Part shown: one piece after another, positions 16,841-23,108 of the stretch
Layout: each line of letters opens with the position of its first letter
Numbering within the stretch: the stretch's first letter is position 1
Virus record (IMG/VR): IMGVR_UViG_3300012950_000025
Coordinates: 1 to 23,108 of that record
Strand: one strand, 5' to 3'
DNA: 23,108 nucleotides
Source of the DNA: a virus
Translations under genes and position numbers: made by a program
Notes under the pieces: generated by a model
The model's input: the letters and a program-made list of their open reading frames with translations, nothing else
Databases searched by the model: none
Told to the model about the DNA's origin: nothing

Positions 16841-17692
16841 ATGGCGAAGCCTGCTTCTAGATCGCAATTAATAGAATACGCGAAGCGACAATTAGGTGCG
16901 CCTGTAGTCGAGATTAACGTTGCTGATGAGCAATGTGAGGATTGTCTTGACGATGCGTTCCAAATGTGGCAAGAAAGGCATTATGATGGTGTCGTGAAGA
17001 TGCCTATGAAATATAAGATTACAGCAGATGATATTAATAGAGGCATTGGATCAGTAGGAATAGTAACAACAACCGTTACACAGGCAGCAAGTACCGGTAT
17101 AGGGACTACTTCTGGTGCGGATGAAACCTTCTCTTTTGAAGAGAATAGTAATTATATTAAGATGCCTGATACCATAGTAGGTATCAATAAGATATATCGG
17201 TTCGATGGTTCGAACACGATGACTAATAATATGTTTAGTGTGAAATATCAGTTATTCTTGAATGATGTTTATTACTTCAATTCAATTGAATTGCTGACTT
17301 ATGCAATGACAAAGACAAAGTTGGAAGATATTGATTTCTTATTGAATACAGAGAAGCAGATTAGATTTAATGTTAGGCAAGAAAGATTATACCTTGATAT
17401 TGATTACAATAGTTTATCAATTGGTGACTATTTGATTATTGATTGTTGGCGAATATTAGATCCCACACAATCTACTGCAGTATTTAATGATAGGTTTGTT
17501 AAGAGATACTACACTGCTCTTCTTAAAAGACAGTGGGGTTCGAATATGATGAAATTCCAAGGAGTTAAACTTCCTGGTGGAATTGAATTGAATGGTAGAC
17601 AAATTTATGATGATGCTCAACTTGAACTTGATAAGATACAGGATAGAATGACTTGGGATTATGAAGAACTACCACTTGATATGATAGGCTAA
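16841..17692 (+). CDS. 13: Neck protein gp13 (head completion)
   Basis: A 283-residue homologue of T4 gp13 (309 aa), which with gp14 forms the neck that closes the filled head and accepts the tail. Visible family signatures: the N-terminal LGAPVVEINVADEQCEDCLD (T4: [20 protein letters not shown]) followed by ERHYDG, and the C-terminal NDRFVKRYYTALLKRQWG, then KFQGVKLPGGIELNGRQI (about 237-254) matching T4 HQGMMLPGGVTIDGQRL. A Thr/Gly-rich stretch near 70-90 (TVTQAASTGIGTTSG) looks like a small insertion of the repetitive sequence seen elsewhere in this window. The stop overlaps the gp14 start by one base (TAATG at 17690-17694), which couples the two partners. A candidate late promoter precedes it. 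The first codons use more GCG/CGA-type codons than neighbouring genes. Confidence 0.93.
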   Translation: MAKPASRSQLIEYAKRQLGAPVVEINVADEQCEDCLDDAFQMWQERHYDGVVKMPMKYKITADDINRGIGSVGIVTTTVTQAASTGIGTTSGADETFSFEENSNYIKMPDTIVGINKIYRFDGSNTMTNNMFSVKYQLFLNDVYYFNSIELLTYAMTKTKLEDIDFLLNTEKQIRFNVRQERLYLDIDYNSLSIGDYLIIDCWRILDPTQSTAVFNDRFVKRYYTALLKRQWGSNMMKFQGVKLPGGIELNGRQIYDDAQLELDKIQDRMTWDYEELPLDMIG

Positions 17693-19065
17693 TGGCATTA
17701 AATCCATTTTTCACTCAAGGAACTCGTAACGAGCAAGACCTTCTTCAATCTCTCAATAATGAGATGATTAAGATGTATGGTGTTGAATGCTATTATCTTC
17801 CTCGTAAATATTTGACGACTAATACAGTCATTAAAGAAGTAATACAGTCAAAGTTTGATGATGCTTATCCATTAGAAGCATACGTTAACAACTATGATGT
17901 CTATCAGGGTAATGGTACAATACTATCAAAGTTCGGTGTTGAGGTTCAGCAAGATATTAATTTGGTTATTTCTAGAGAGAGATTCAAAACATACATCCAA
18001 CCTCTTATTAGAAATGAAACGGGAATTACGGTATCCACCAGACCGAGGGAAGGGGATATAATCTGGTTCCCATTAGATGATAGGCTATATGAAATTAAAT
18101 TTGTTGAACATGCTAAACCATTCTTCCAATTAAAAGAACTTTATGTCTACGAACTCCAGTGTGAAGTATTCCGTTATGAAGACGAAACGGTTGATACTGG
18201 AGTTGGTCAGATTGATGACGAAACCTCCGACCTTGGATACTCACAAACTCTCACACTTACTGGTATCGGAACAACAGCTACTGCTGTCACCACATTTAGA
18301 GACGGCGGTATTCAGTTCATTGATCTCCTTAATTCTGGAAGCGGATACAGGGCAACCCCCACAGTTGCAATTTCTTCTGCTCCAGGTGGCGGCATTACAG
18401 CTACTGCTGTAGCGATTACAACCAGTATGGTTGGACTTACTACTTCTTATGCTATTGAGAGTATTCGTATAACTGATCCTGGTGCTGGTTATCTATCACC
18501 ACCATCTGTTACATTTGCTGGTGGAGGTGGAACAGGTATTGCTGTAACAGTTGGTATTGCTACTACAGGAACTGTTGGAGTAGTTACGATTACAGACGGT
18601 GGTGCTGGATACTATGGAACTACACCTACAATCACGTTTGCTGCCCCTGGAACAGGTACAACTGCAACTGGGGTATTAGTTGCTACTGGTGGTACTATAC
18701 AGTCTGCTAGAATAGTTAATGCTGGTGCAGGATATACTGATGTACCTACAATTACCATTAGTGATCCAGGGTTGCTTGGTTCTGGTGATTTCTACTTTAA
18801 TGAGGAGGTTACAGGTGGTACCACAGAAACTAAAGCAAGAGTCAAGTCTTGGGATGTCGATACTAAAACCCTTGTGGTTGGTATTGCAACAGGAACATTC
18901 CTCCAAGGAGAATCTATTACTGGTGACGAATCCGGAGCAGTTTACACTCTTGCAGTGGATACTACTGATGATCTAGTGACACCATACGCAGATAATGCTA
19001 CAATACAATCAACGGGTGATGATATTCTTGATTGGACAAGAAAGAACCCATTTGGAGACGCTTAA
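17692..19065 (+). CDS. 14: Neck protein gp14, enlarged by a GxGY repeat domain
   Basis: A 457-residue homologue of T4 gp14 (256 aa). The N-terminal ~170 residues match the family: GVECYYLPRKY (30-40; T4 GVECYYVPREY), a FGVEVQQDINLVIS segment, REGDIIWFPLDDRLYEIKFV and a following PFFQL near 147 (T4 EGDLIYFPMDNSLFEINWV, PFYQL). From about residue 203 to 360 there are four GxGY repeats (NSGSGYRATPTV, DPGAGYLSPPSV, DGGAGYYGTTPT, NAGAGYTDVPTI). A second beta module follows (about 365-425) containing SITGDESGA. The C-terminus ends KNPFGDA, recalling the short SPFDNDF tail of T4 gp14, so the extra ~200 residues appear to sit between the core and a conserved tail. It would assemble with gp13 at the neck; the added domains are presumably displayed on the outside (inference). 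Confidence 0.92.
   Translation: MALNPFFTQGTRNEQDLLQSLNNEMIKMYGVECYYLPRKYLTTNTVIKEVIQSKFDDAYPLEAYVNNYDVYQGNGTILSKFGVEVQQDINLVISRERFKTYIQPLIRNETGITVSTRPREGDIIWFPLDDRLYEIKFVEHAKPFFQLKELYVYELQCEVFRYEDETVDTGVGQIDDETSDLGYSQTLTLTGIGTTATAVTTFRDGGIQFIDLLNSGSGYRATPTVAISSAPGGGITATAVAITTSMVGLTTSYAIESIRITDPGAGYLSPPSVTFAGGGGTGIAVTVGIATTGTVGVVTITDGGAGYYGTTPTITFAAPGTGTTATGVLVATGGTIQSARIVNAGAGYTDVPTITISDPGLLGSGDFYFNEEVTGGTTETKARVKSWDVDTKTLVVGIATGTFLQGESITGDESGAVYTLAVDTTDDLVTPYADNATIQSTGDDILDWTRKNPFGDA
18300..18770 (+). repeat. Four GxGY beta repeats within gp14
   Basis: Four protein-level repeats of about 35-45 residues each follow the form I-x-[NDS]-x-G-x-G-Y-x-x-x-P-[TS]-[VI]-x-[IF]. They are separated by Ala/Thr/Gly-rich linkers. 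The DNA of the repeats is related but not identical (for example GGTGCTGG[AT]TA is reused around the GAGY codons). The same module occurs in gp8 and in both giant proteins. Confidence 0.8.
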
Positions 19066-19351: not shown

Positions 19352-20398
19352 GTGTTTGAATATTTCTATCATGAGATCCTGAGAAAAACCGTCATTGGTT
19401 TTGGAACCCTTTTTAACAACGTTCAAATCAGAAAGGTGGATGGCACTGGCAAAGGAATCAGTGTTATGAAGGTTCCACTTGCCTATGGTCCAATTCAGAA
19501 ATTTTTGGCAAGAGTTGAACAAACACCAGATTTAAAAGGAGCACCGGCTTTAACACTTCCTAGGTTATCATTTGAATTTACTGGATTAAGTTATGATCCA
19601 TCTAGAAAGGTAACTCAAACACAAACTTTTTTAACTGCTCCTACAAGCGACAAGACACAGGCACGACAGGTTTATATGCCAGTGCCATATAATATGACGT
19701 TTGAATTGAATGCGCTTACTAAAATAAATGATGATGCATTACAGATAGTAGAACAGATATTACCTTACTTCCAACCTTCTTATAATTTAAACATTAATTT
19801 ACTCTCATCCATCGGTGAAAAGAGAGACGTACCCATTGTTTTAGATAGCGTTTCTTTCACTGATGATTATGAGGGAGATTTCTCAGAACGTCGAGCATTA
19901 GTTTATACACTTACATTTACTGCCAAGACATACCTCTTTGGCCCTATTCCTTCTGCTTCTACTGGATTAATCAAGAAAGCAACTATTGATTACAGTACAA
20001 GGAAAGGTAAGGACTTTAGAAGAGAAGTTCGCTACAGTGTTACACCACGTGCTATTAAGGATTACACTAATGATGGTACAACATATTTGGCAGAAACCCT
20101 TGATACTACAGAGACTCTTGTTACTGTAGCAGATGCATCTTCACTCAGTGTGAAGGATCATATCTATGTTGGTACTGAGAATATCAAAATCACAGAGATT
20201 GATGGCAATAACCTTGTTGTTCTTCGTGGACAAGAGGGAACCACTGCTGCAGAACATGTCAATGGTGCTACAGTAGATCTTATTACTACTGCTGATGATG
20301 CACTTATTGATATGGGTGATGATTTTGGTTTCAATGAAACAACTTCATTCTTCCAGGACTTTAAGCAGTATAGTCCATCTCAAGATAAGGATGTTTAA
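19352..20398 (+). CDS. 15: Tail sheath stabiliser and completion protein gp15, GTG start
   Basis: A 348-residue homologue of T4 gp15 (272 aa), which caps the finished tail tube and sheath and binds the neck. Signatures: the N-terminus FEYFYHEILRKTVIGFGTLF with NVQIRK (T4 MFGYFYNSSFRR, LFSNIQIK), the segment QIVEQILPYFQP at residues 131-142, which as I recall T4 gp15 is identical there, and a KRDVPIVLDSVSFTDDYEGD segment. The start is GTG at 19352. An in-frame TAG at 19346-19348 rules out anything longer, and the family N-terminus begins exactly at this codon. Residues about 243-312 hold an added module (DHIYVGTENIKITEIDG, then RGQEGTTAAEHVNGATV) also present in both giant proteins, followed by an acidic tail. 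The module lies in the C-terminal region, where T4 gp15 has a proline-rich tail. Confidence 0.93.
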   Translation: MFEYFYHEILRKTVIGFGTLFNNVQIRKVDGTGKGISVMKVPLAYGPIQKFLARVEQTPDLKGAPALTLPRLSFEFTGLSYDPSRKVTQTQTFLTAPTSDKTQARQVYMPVPYNMTFELNALTKINDDALQIVEQILPYFQPSYNLNINLLSSIGEKRDVPIVLDSVSFTDDYEGDFSERRALVYTLTFTAKTYLFGPIPSASTGLIKKATIDYSTRKGKDFRREVRYSVTPRAIKDYTNDGTTYLAETLDTTETLVTVADASSLSVKDHIYVGTENIKITEIDGNNLVVLRGQEGTTAAEHVNGATVDLITTADDALIDMGDDFGFNETTSFFQDFKQYSPSQDKDV

Positions 20399-20400
20399 TT

Positions 20401-20820
20401 ATGGCAGACTTTACTGAATTAGAAAAAACGTTCGATGTAGCAAGTGAAGTTGTTGCAGATGTTAAGAAGGTTGGTATCCAAAAACCACCCCTAGAAAGGG
20501 ATAAGACGGATATCAGAAATGACTACGAATATACAAGAGGCAATTTATATTCTATCATTGAGAAAGGACAAGAAGCAATTAATGGAATTCTTGAACTTGC
20601 TCAAGAGAGCGAAATGCCAAGAGCGTACGAAGTTGCCGGACAACTCGTCAAATCAGTCTCAGATGCCACCGATAAATTGATGGATCTGCAGAAGAAACTT
20701 AAAGATGTTGAAGAGGAGAAAGAAAGGTCTCCAACGAATGTAACAAATGCTTTGTTTGTTGGTTCAACTAATGAATTAGCAAAGATGCTAAAAGATGCTA
20801 CTAAGGCTCAAAATAAATAA
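20401..20820 (+). CDS. 16: Terminase small subunit gp16
   Basis: A 139-residue homologue of T4 gp16 (164 aa), the ring-forming DNA-recognition subunit that starts packaging and stimulates the gp17 motor. Its layout matches: NDYEYTRGNLYSIIEKGQEA near residues 40-59 (T4 DDYGVVRRNMHF), a long helical core with EMPRAYEVAGQLVKSVSD (T4 DSPRHMEVFATLMGQM), a coiled-coil LMDLQKKLKDVEEEKE, and a C-terminal NALFVGSTNELAKML (T4 NATVFMGSPTELMDEI). It is slightly shorter than T4 gp16 at both ends. It starts 2 bases after the gp15 stop. In T4, gp16 is followed by gp17; here at least three other genes come first. Confidence 0.92.
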   Translation: MADFTELEKTFDVASEVVADVKKVGIQKPPLERDKTDIRNDYEYTRGNLYSIIEKGQEAINGILELAQESEMPRAYEVAGQLVKSVSDATDKLMDLQKKLKDVEEEKERSPTNVTNALFVGSTNELAKMLKDATKAQNK

Positions 20821-20824
20821 AGAT

Positions 20825-22486
20825 ATGGTAAGCAAAACTCCGATTGTTGATCTCCCGTCAATAGACGAGTTTATTGTTGAGCCTGAAGGATTACCTTCTG
20901 TATCTCAATTTTTACCTGAAGAGATAGAAGAAGTTGAAGAAGAAATACAAACTATTGAGGATGCCGATGGTAATGCCTTTTTAGAAGTAGAAGATATTAT
21001 TAAAGCACCTGAATGGGGTGAATTGGTAAGAATGGTTAATGATGTCCGTAAGGATATACCAGAGATACCAGAAGTTAAAGATTATGCTCCAGAATTAGAA
21101 GAGTTATCTGCTACTATTCAGCAGATAAAAGAGGAGATACCAGTAGTACCAGAGATTAGGTATTATGAAGATGAGTTACAAACATTACGAGAGTCAATTA
21201 GTAAAGTTGAAGACTCTATCCCTTCTTTACCAACTTGGATTCACAAAGTCACCGAAGTCCCTGATTTTGCTTGGGTTGGAAAAGGATTCAATGTTATCGA
21301 TGAAGATTTTAGGTCTGTAAGAGATACAATATCTACTCTTGCAACAAGAGTAACTCATGAATTAGAAAGAATAAATGAGGAAACAGATACTAAACAGTTT
21401 GAGACAAAGACTGATTTTAAGACTATTCATGAAAGAGTTGATACTGTAAGAAAAGATATCTTTAAGCAACTTAGGGAACAGTCTACTGTTATCTGGAATC
21501 TTCAGAAGAAACTTAAATCAAATCAGAAAGAATTTGAGATAACCTTTAATGATAAAGTTGGAGAAAGGTTTGATGCTTTTAGTGAGGTAACAAAGAAAAC
21601 TGTAGAGAATCTACAAGAATCATTTGTTGAATCTACAGATAATCTTGCTAAGCATATGGATAAGGAGGTCAATTCTCTTTCAGAGAGAATTAAGACTTTA
21701 CCTAAACCAAAGTATTATGAAGAAGATTTAAAGAATATTAGAAAAGAACTTAAGGATTTAACTGAGTTAAAAGCTCTTGTATATGATATAAAATTAAAAC
21801 AACATGATATACAAGAAGGACTTTTAAATATTCCACCAGATGTTGACAATTCAGATCCATTAACACCTTTGGATCAAAAGTTTGCTACTCATGAAGATCT
21901 AGCAAAACATTACAGACTTTTTATTAATAGGATACAAACTCAACTTTCTACTCTAGGTGGTGGAGGTGCTGTACGTTTTGATGATCTAGAAGACGTTGGT
22001 ATTGGAACTTATACCAAGTATAGTACTACTGCTGCTAATCCAGGTATCAATACAGGTACAGTATTGATATATGACTCTAATTTAAAAATTGTTGGTATTG
22101 CTAGTACCGCATTAACTACAGATGCAGAGACTTTAGATCAGACATTGAAGCAGGGTAATACCACTGGAATGGGTATGAGTATGAGTGGTATTGTTACTTT
22201 TAGCAATACTACTGAATCACATGATTGGGATAATGGTTCTGTATTATTCAGTGGTGGTGTTGGTATAGCAAAGAGTTTACATGTTAAGGGTAATATATCA
22301 GCGGCAGGAACTATTACATATGAAGATGTAACAAACGTTGATTCTATCGGTATTATAACAGCCAATAGTGGTATAAATGTTTCTGGTGTGGTTACTGCAA
22401 TTGCAGGCGCAGCAGTAACTTACTATGGTGACGGTTCTAATTTGACAGGTAAAGCATCTATCGGAATGGTGCTGGCATTAGGATGA
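20825..22486 (+). CDS. Coiled-coil fibre-like virion protein between small terminase and the gp17 region
   Basis: A 553-residue protein from the ATG at 20825. An in-frame ATG at 20795 would add ten residues but overlap gp16 by 26 bases. The N-terminus is acidic (EEIEEVEEEIQTIED). Two adjacent 27-residue repeats follow at 78-131 (starting IPEIPEV and IPVVPEIRYYED), with a related copy near 290 (LPKPKYYEEDLKNIRKEL). Most of residues 80-370 is charged, heptad-rich and probably coiled coil. A glycine hinge (LGGGGA, about 377) leads to RFDDLEDVGIG and a beta-rich C-terminal third containing SVLFSGGVGIAKSLHV, SIGIITANSGINVSGV and TYYGDGSNLTG, motifs I associate with marine phage fibre and structural proteins. 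The overall plan, long trimer-like stalk plus beta tip, is that of a fibre or whisker. It ends in an ATGA overlap with the next gene. The virion role is likely; its exact location is unknown. Confidence 0.82.
   Translation: MVSKTPIVDLPSIDEFIVEPEGLPSVSQFLPEEIEEVEEEIQTIEDADGNAFLEVEDIIKAPEWGELVRMVNDVRKDIPEIPEVKDYAPELEELSATIQQIKEEIPVVPEIRYYEDELQTLRESISKVEDSIPSLPTWIHKVTEVPDFAWVGKGFNVIDEDFRSVRDTISTLATRVTHELERINEETDTKQFETKTDFKTIHERVDTVRKDIFKQLREQSTVIWNLQKKLKSNQKEFEITFNDKVGERFDAFSEVTKKTVENLQESFVESTDNLAKHMDKEVNSLSERIKTLPKPKYYEEDLKNIRKELKDLTELKALVYDIKLKQHDIQEGLLNIPPDVDNSDPLTPLDQKFATHEDLAKHYRLFINRIQTQLSTLGGGGAVRFDDLEDVGIGTYTKYSTTAANPGINTGTVLIYDSNLKIVGIASTALTTDAETLDQTLKQGNTTGMGMSMSGIVTFSNTTESHDWDNGSVLFSGGVGIAKSLHVKGNISAAGTITYEDVTNVDSIGIITANSGINVSGVVTAIAGAAVTYYGDGSNLTGKASIGMVLALG
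21056..21217 (+). repeat. Tandem 27-residue repeats in the fibre-like protein
   Basis: Two adjacent 27-codon units, residues 78-104 and 105-131, share the form I-P-x-[IV]-P-E-[VI]-[KR]-x-Y-x-x-[ED]-L-x-x-L-x-x-x-I. A third IP-x-[LV]-P start follows at residue 132, and a distant copy lies near residue 290. The Pro-rich start followed by a Tyr and a heptad stretch suggests short helices joined by proline elbows. Confidence 0.65.
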
Positions 22487-22824
22487 AGACCTTTAAGCAG
22501 TTTATATCAGAAACTCCTAGTATGTCTGGTCCGGTAGTACCAGATAATCCTTCCATGGCAGGGTATGTGCCAAAATTATTTCCACATGATATCACTCCTT
22601 TAGATCAAGGTTTTCAGGGACCAGGAGAGACGGGACAAGATAGATATAATAGATTTTTTGGAGTTATACCTGTTGAAAGAATGACTCTTAAAACTAAACT
22701 TGACGGGAATGATTCTATTGATCAGATGGTACAAGCATCAAAAGAATTTGTTAGTGTACAAGATAGTAGAAGTGCTGCAATAAGGTATAAACAATTCAGA
22801 CAGAACTTAATAGGTGATAAATAG
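22483..22824 (+). CDS. Small protein with a T4-type capsid-targeting N-terminal peptide
   Basis: A 113-residue protein starting in the ATGA overlap with the fibre-like gene. The first ten residues, MKTFKQFISE, closely match the capsid-targeting sequence of T4 internal head proteins IPI and IPIII (MKTYQEFIAE): same length, Lys-Thr-aromatic start, F-I and final Glu. I-S-E also fits the (L/I)-x-E rule of the T4 prohead protease gp21, which would leave a mature protein of 103 residues starting TPSMSG. The rest is polar: SMSGPVVPDNPSMAGYVPKL, a Gly-rich GFQGPGETGQDRYNRFFGV, then a Lys/Arg-rich helix ending RYKQFRQNLIGDK. No enzyme motif is seen. I infer an internal head protein packaged with the scaffold. 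An alternative is a structural protein whose N-terminus resembles the signal by chance. Confidence 0.82.
   Translation: MKTFKQFISETPSMSGPVVPDNPSMAGYVPKLFPHDITPLDQGFQGPGETGQDRYNRFFGVIPVERMTLKTKLDGNDSIDQMVQASKEFVSVQDSRSAAIRYKQFRQNLIGDK
22816..22823 (+). promoter_or_regulatory. Candidate T4-type late promoter before the membrane-protein gene
   Basis: GATAAATA, one mismatch from TATAAATA, overlaps the TAG stop of the preceding gene and ends 21 bases before the next ATG. It is the same octamer found before gp13. A chance match in A+T-rich DNA is possible. Confidence 0.35.
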
Positions 22825-22844: not shown

Positions 22845-23108
22845 ATGCCCGAAGAAGTTAAAGAAGAACTTCAAGAGGAAGAGAAAAAGAAAGGTGCTCT
22901 TAGCAAACTAAAAGATGCTATACTACCAGATGCAGCTGAACAAGCTGCTATAATATCAACATTCGTCAGACTTGGCGTGTTGGTATGGTCCGGCGGAATT
23001 TTGACTTTAAATTACGTTGCCATACCTGGCGTTCCTCAGCAGAAAATTGATCCGACATTTATAGCTTCGGTTTTTACAGGAGTTTTAGCTAGCTTCGGAA
23101 TTCAGACA
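22845..23108 (+). CDS. Small membrane protein, 3'-truncated by window end
   Basis: ATG at 22845 opens a frame of 88 codons that runs off the window without a stop. The N-terminus is strongly charged (MPEEVKEELQEEEKKKG), followed by LSKLKDAILPDAAEQAA. Two hydrophobic segments come next: TFVRLGVLVWSGGILTLNYV (about residues 41-60) and FIASVFTGVLASFGI (about 72-86), joined by a short AIPGVPQQKIDPT loop, so a two-span hairpin membrane protein is predicted. It follows the small targeting-peptide gene by 20 bases; no strong ribosome-binding site is visible, and a candidate late promoter precedes it. The length, charged tail and paired spans would suit a holin or another inner-membrane late protein, but no family could be assigned. 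The charged end lies at the N-terminus, whereas many holins carry it at the C-terminus. Confidence 0.75.
   Translation, partial: MPEEVKEELQEEEKKKGALSKLKDAILPDAAEQAAIISTFVRLGVLVWSGGILTLNYVAIPGVPQQKIDPTFIASVFTGVLASFGIQT

Follow-up and report, generated by a model that had tools for sequence, protein, structure and literature searches.

A 113-amino-acid open reading frame (ORF) in IMG/VR virus record IMGVR_UViG_3300012950_000025 raised the question whether its first ten residues, which resemble the capsid-targeting sequence (CTS) of phage T4, mark the product for entry into the phage head, and what such a product would be. The ORF (the window gene) lies near the end of the window, the whole stretch of 23,108 nucleotides that was analysed. 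CTS-marked internal proteins that vary among T-even phages are a known concept (PMC9026906). Targeting of T4 IPIII depends on its residues 4 and 7 and processing on 8 and 10; gp21 cleaves after [LI]-x-E (PMC9026906). The product of the window gene is probably made as an internal head protein precursor, for which we infer packaging, cleavage and any injection. In the proposed mechanism, leader residues 1-10 would draw the protein into the prohead core, a gp21-type protease would then cut after Glu10, and the mature polypeptide of 103 residues would stay within the capsid. On the same account, this leader, or a second type exchangeable with it, marks many further proteins of these phages, among them enzymes directed at the host and carried in the virion.

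The window gene and its leader

The window covered a structural region of a marine T4-like, kyanovirus-related phage, encoding gp13, gp14, gp15, gp16, a fibre-like ORF, the window gene and a DUF6450 ORF. Features around the window gene were as follows.

19352..20398, + strand: gp15, tail sheath stabiliser (PHROG/Pfam search)
20401..20820, + strand: gp16, terminase small subunit (phrog_445, 2e-51)
20795..22486, + strand: tail-fibre-like ORF upstream of the window gene, whose ATG its stop overlaps (junction conserved in relatives)
22483..22824, + strand: window gene, putative internal head protein precursor, 113 aa (ORF, homologues)
22483..22512, + strand: leader MKTFKQFISE (type A), with K2, F4 and F7 (targeting) and I8 and E10 (processing), by T4 mapping (PMC9026906)
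22507..22515, + strand: predicted prohead-protease joint S9-E10/T11, with I8 just before it (I-x-E)
22513..22821, + strand: body, 103 aa, with conserved short motifs and low predicted order except for helix 79-109
22783..22797, + strand: C-terminal leader-like segment RYKQF (homologue alignment)
22845..23108, + strand: downstream DUF6450 ORF, running off the window (PHROG/Pfam search)

The original prediction had placed the gene near packaging genes, which agreed with the order gp13-gp14-gp15-gp16-fibre-[gene] in the window and with the presence of gp17 downstream in relatives. Because the stop of the fibre-like ORF overlaps the ATG of the window gene, coupled translation of the two is likely. 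In the same region, the gp14 neck protein (17692-19065) contained an additional Gly-rich repeat region, at about residues 190-360, that matched virion structural and baseplate wedge families.

Translation of the window gene begins with MKTFKQFISE/T (the slash marks the predicted joint; written MKTFKQFISETPSMSG...; full protein, MKTFKQFISETPSMSGPVVPDNPSMAGYVPKLFPHDITPLDQGFQGPGETGQDRYNRFFGVIPVERMTLKTKLDGNDSIDQMVQASKEFVSVQDSRSAAIRYKQFRQNLIGDK). Its leader has F4, F7, I8 and E10, all of the positions mapped in IPIII, and residues I8-S9-E10 form the [LI]-x-E processing motif. The proposed match to the T4 CTS in length and pattern, with an I-x-E end, was therefore borne out by the ORF and by positions 4, 7, 8 and 10. 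A scan of T4 (AF158101), included as a control, recovered ipII and ipIII (MKTYQEFIAE) as well as 61.1 (MKTFKEFIKED). The sequence MKTYQEFIAE, previously quoted for both IPI and IPIII, was correct for IPIII, and also for IPII, but not for IPI, which begins MKTFKEFTSTTTPVSTITE (MKTFKEF...). Because of this start, the window leader is closer to that of IPI than had been stated, and closer to it than to those of IPII and IPIII.

A marine family around the window gene

The 103 residues behind the leader had been described as unrecognised. Body-based searches overturned this description, yielding 16 relatives at first and later no fewer than 188 related loci in IMG/VR; further relatives came from S-SM2 (ADO97450, 41.7% identity) and S-SKS1 as well as from two single-cell marine viruses. 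Judged by sequence, these relatives and the window protein make up a large family of leader-bearing proteins that has no name. Among 47 aligned homologues, chosen by similarity of the body and not of the leader, residue 10 was Glu in 45 and Asp in two, K2 was kept in 45 and residue 7 was Phe or Tyr in 45, while nearly all had F, L or Y at position 4 and I, L, M or V at position 8. Leader codons varied synonymously at their third positions across homologues, with the encoded residues unchanged. Since these body-selected homologues retained K2, positions 4, 7 and 8 and E10, and since the start pattern far exceeded a codon-permuted control (see below), the leader is not a product of chance.

About five relatives (L003, L004/L005, L021 and L322) kept the body and had no MKTF-type leader. 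Their replacement leaders (MFIDRILSILRE/SPTN, MLIDRVISILRE/TAPTN, MDIDRVISRIRNLKE/TPTN and MNINRFVSNIKHIRE/AAPTN) were short and led into the same type of L-x-E joint, followed by [STA]P. Homologues with an intact body and a lost peptide had been named in advance as evidence against the prediction; in form they do occur, but with the L-x-E joint preserved and another leader present. Because the joint is preserved, exchange of the leader is the better reading of these deviant homologues. The joint predicted for the window protein is based on the near-invariance of E10 in the 47 homologues, its retention despite leader exchange and the [LI]-x-E cleavage rule (PMC9026906).

Most relatives were located between gp16 and gp17, in the usual order gp14-gp15-gp16-fibre-[gene]-SSM2_109-gp17, and 55 of 60 family genes abutted the upstream ORF. 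In seven contigs (L295, L305, L307, L317, L329, L335 and L340) a relative was flanked on both sides by gp23, which encodes the major capsid protein, and gp3; two more (L297 and L339) showed one flank of this head-operon placement, and several head-operon contigs also had gp21 and gp22 upstream. The S-SKS1 relative was two genes away from gp61. The family thus occupied three different genome sites, and it was not present in every T4-like phage searched. Of the contigs compared, the one closest to the window (G002, 85 kb) was 79-80% identical and collinear over window positions 11-23107 and encoded a gp21 peptidase S77 (5e-37); G005 and G006, which also match the window, likewise had gp21 (PF03420). 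The gp21 homologue expected in the same genome was thus found by proxy in these matching contigs, whereas the 23-kb window itself does not show gp21.

AlphaFold with the 47 homologues gave no confident fold for the window protein (pLDDT 59, pTM 0.25). Neither a catalytic domain nor a Pfam family was found in it, and PHROG gave nothing useful for the body. An earlier lean towards an injected effector was therefore not supported for this body, which has no confident fold and no enzymatic family; it is probably no enzyme but an accessory or carrier protein, small and for the most part extended. Conserved body residues were L40, Q42, Q45, P47, E49, G51, P63, V64, L69, S78, I79, D80, M82, A85 and S86. 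The RYKQF site reads [RK]K[TN]FxxF in many relatives and is where extra C-terminal modules join. Many family members carried such additions (KKSIDCSNPKGFSQ.AHC; CPDGKYWCYTDKKCK with a Gly/Asn-rich tail; PRIPRKKGQPA; a gp61.1-like NNVGGG), some of which also occurred as stand-alone leader proteins, such as MKTFKQFQEEWSNKYKKSIDC... (L082). Fusions often retained a leader-like KTFxQFxE ahead of the module, and P-TIM68 AIR93449, located directly after gp23, chained several modules. Cutting of such chains by gp21, as polyproteins, is proposed here as a hypothesis only. Leader-like segments were also observed at the C-termini of S-SCSM1_93 (L383:6626-6835) and of cytidylyltransferases (KKRTFKEFLEYIE; KSFKNFLNKYRKN).

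The leader on unrelated proteins and in virion proteomes

The suggested search for the N-terminal pattern revealed that the leader is widespread in marine T4-like relatives: the start MKTFK[QE]F occurred in at least 119 IMG/VR stretches, whereas a codon-permuted control matched nine across the full collection. Among the matches listed, 121 leader proteins of at least 35 aa fell into at least 78 unrelated body clusters; an in-frame stop was present within 30 codons upstream of 114 of these 121 proteins, and 98 had their first Glu at residue 9 or 10. Named cargo among the matches listed included S-adenosylmethionine (SAM) lyase (a cluster of 14), nucleotidyltransferase/cytidylyltransferase-like proteins, ADP-ribosyltransferase (ART-PolyVal) and an RlpA-like domain. 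A T4-core ORF accompanied the leader on 89 of the 119 stretches listed, versus one of the nine control stretches. All nine complete T4-like genomes examined encoded gp21 (PF03420), and several unrelated leader proteins were found per T4-like genome; the three podoviruses examined had neither gp21 nor leader. The leader is portable, an identical type being found on unrelated bodies. These included a second protein of G002, starting MKSFQQFLSE/A, whose assignment as cytidylyltransferase-like is based on an FGRFNPP motif and a similar layout, read directly.

Because the protein at L114:4567-5838 looks like an HK97-type capsid protein, not all pattern matches are T4-type leaders. This protein starts MKTFKQFLESKG, and its stretch carries no T4-core genes. 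In the scanned leader set, one member matched Phage_capsid.

Cyanophage proteomics has repeatedly detected enzymes in virions; the authors of these studies concede that such enzymes could be carry-over of free proteins, which they could not separate from packaging. From 31 ten-residue leaders of the window family only, a leader profile was derived, and each of the 3,148 possible ORF starts in S-CREM2 was ranked by it. The top four ranks went to a cytidylyltransferase (ORF154), a SAM hydrolase (ORF6), an APH/ChoK-like kinase (ORF14) and ORF13, all of which are virion proteins detected by mass spectrometry (MS) according to PMC10665884 (Table 3). Only one of 2,000 column-permuted profiles reached four of four in S-CREM2. 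An NMNAT of S-SCSM1 (leader MKSFLQFLKE) and a cytidylyltransferase of S-SZBM1 (leader MRFRQFIIE) are likewise listed as MS-detected virion proteins. Across S-CREM2, S-SCSM1 and S-SZBM1, six of the nine starts that scored at least 10 belonged to MS-detected proteins, with 1.7 expected (P about 0.002, on approximate base rates and with about 150 of the 229 kb of S-SCSM1 covered). The leader proteins missed by MS were SSCSM1_30, SSZBM1_191 and SSZBM1_192; two of these three belong to a single family of 105-aa proteins, and the third has 165 aa. No virion MS of the window protein or a close homologue was found in the literature.

Several further observations were made in these phages. The frame of SSCSM1_97 (MK867354 93121; L383:8121), an MS-detected virion protein, opens upstream at MDKTDRVIQLIRE/MIAVGAGGFTG with a type-B-like leader; this protein was probably annotated from an internal Met. 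S-CREM2 ORF12 (OR473000 7704-10313, - strand; L366), which is MS-detected and labelled a CRISPR-Cas9 nuclease, had no Pfam match; near its N-terminus it showed a leader-like PLRFASFMAEA, followed by an LGLxSDGHG module as in cytidylyltransferases. Short, adaptor-domain-like modules of the LGLxSDGHGxW type followed the leader in several different enzymes (S-SM2 130761; G002 8181, - strand; S-SCSM1 88819; S-CREM2 12846, - strand).

These data can be combined in a joint reading that we put forward tentatively and with some doubt, in which marine T4-like phages would use a packaging code readable from sequence, carry polyprotein cargo and employ the window body as a carrier. Two exchangeable leader classes, A (MKxFxxFxxE) and B (MxIDRIxxxxRxxKE-like), would each end in an LxE-type joint. 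The head cargo that they load would be large and fast-changing, with SAM lyase, NMNAT-like enzymes and ADP-ribosyltransferases as well as kinases among its members. Some cargo would consist of polyproteins, strung from stand-alone leader modules with leader-like joints left for gp21. Universality of the leader in gp21-bearing phages was considered and rejected, S-PM2 and HTVC008M having gp21 and no leader by pattern; so was a single leader class per phage lineage, as S-SKS1 and S-SM2 carry both.

As far as the literature searched shows, the marine family, the breadth of leader cargo, the link between leader and virion enzymes and the exchangeable second leader are new; the search, whose partial coverage leaves absence unproven, found no earlier report of the leader in marine phages. 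The leader may allow what marine T4-like phages bring into a cell to be read from their genomes. If it predicts virion enzymes, it would supply a mechanism, and the question which proteins are carried would become one of genome scanning. Sibling cargo includes SAM lyases, which are able to block restriction-modification.

Alternative readings and known systems

Capsid targeting by the leader, as originally proposed, is well supported by the conserved functional positions, the association with gp21, the head-operon synteny and the MS detection of other leader proteins. Targeting would also be expected of a scaffold-like component of the prohead core that enters by the leader, is cut up or expelled at maturation and is not delivered to the host. 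Low predicted order of the window protein and the location of relatives between gp23 and gp3 are consistent with such a component, for which the reported absence of gp67 and gp68 from cyanomyoviruses (PMC2984593) leaves room as a substitute. We nevertheless consider it unlikely, because a family that is missing from some T4-like phages and occupies three genome sites does not resemble an essential core protein, and because discarded filler would not need so well conserved a body. Small acidic ORFs were observed between gp20 and gp21 (P-TIM68 103333-103578; S-SCSM1 51854-52009); these may correspond to gp67, despite its stated absence from cyanomyoviruses (PMC2984593).

The overlap or abutment with a fibre-like ORF in most relatives would suit a tail or neck accessory of that ORF, with the leader serving to dock the protein on the tail and not on the prohead, and MS detection, which gives virion location, cannot tell head from tail. 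This reading appears improbable, since the leader also occurs on unrelated enzymes distant from tail genes and on the head proteins IPI, IPII and IPIII of T4, and since relatives of the window body are found in the head operon. Still harder to credit is an N-terminal sequence that acts only as a translation-initiation or expression-enhancing start region, with no targeting role. AT-rich early codons can help initiation, and the start of the window gene overlaps the upstream stop; however, selection acts on the amino acids, as third codon positions vary without loss of the aromatics at 4 and 7 or of Glu10, and controls with permuted codons or permuted columns both fail.

As an internal head protein precursor, the window protein can be compared with T4 IPI, IPII and IPIII (Mullaney and Black, 1996; reviewed in PMC9026906), small proteins that likewise have a ten-residue N-terminal leader. 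Shared features are the aromatics at positions 4 and 7, a hydrophobic residue at 8, Glu10, a gp21-type protease (in relatives of the window gene) and the use of one leader on several unrelated bodies. Similarity of the window body to any T4 IP was not found; a test for the IPI family gave no Pfam match and a weak PHROG match (E 0.014) confined to residues 1-19, the leader region. In contrast to the T4 proteins, family genes are located in the g15-g18 region or the head operon, the mature window protein is not basic (pI 6.5), and its relatives bear C-terminal add-on modules and sometimes another leader.

The head proteins of phiKZ and SPN3US, which have N-terminal propeptides, are also substrates of a gp21-like protease that cuts after Glu (PMC9026906), but these phages belong to another group and do not have the same leader, the phiKZ motif being S/A-x-E. 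T4 gp61.1 (54 aa; AF158101 18966-19130, - strand; L198), of unknown function and encoded next to gp61 and 61.2 (adfA; PMC9391042), has the same CTS-like leader type as the window protein, and in marine phages similar small proteins and window-family members are found near gp61. It differs in having only a short Gly/Lys-rich tail. In the literature searched, gp61.1 was nowhere reported to be an internal head protein; its leader suggests that it may be an overlooked one. Virion-borne enzymes of cyanophages (NMNAT/cytidylyltransferase, SAM hydrolase and APH/ChoK-like kinase; PMC9602691, PMC10665884 and PMC9146016) differ from the window body, which by homology is not an enzyme. The route by which they enter the virion is not explained in the parts of these papers that were seen, and several of them carry the same leader.
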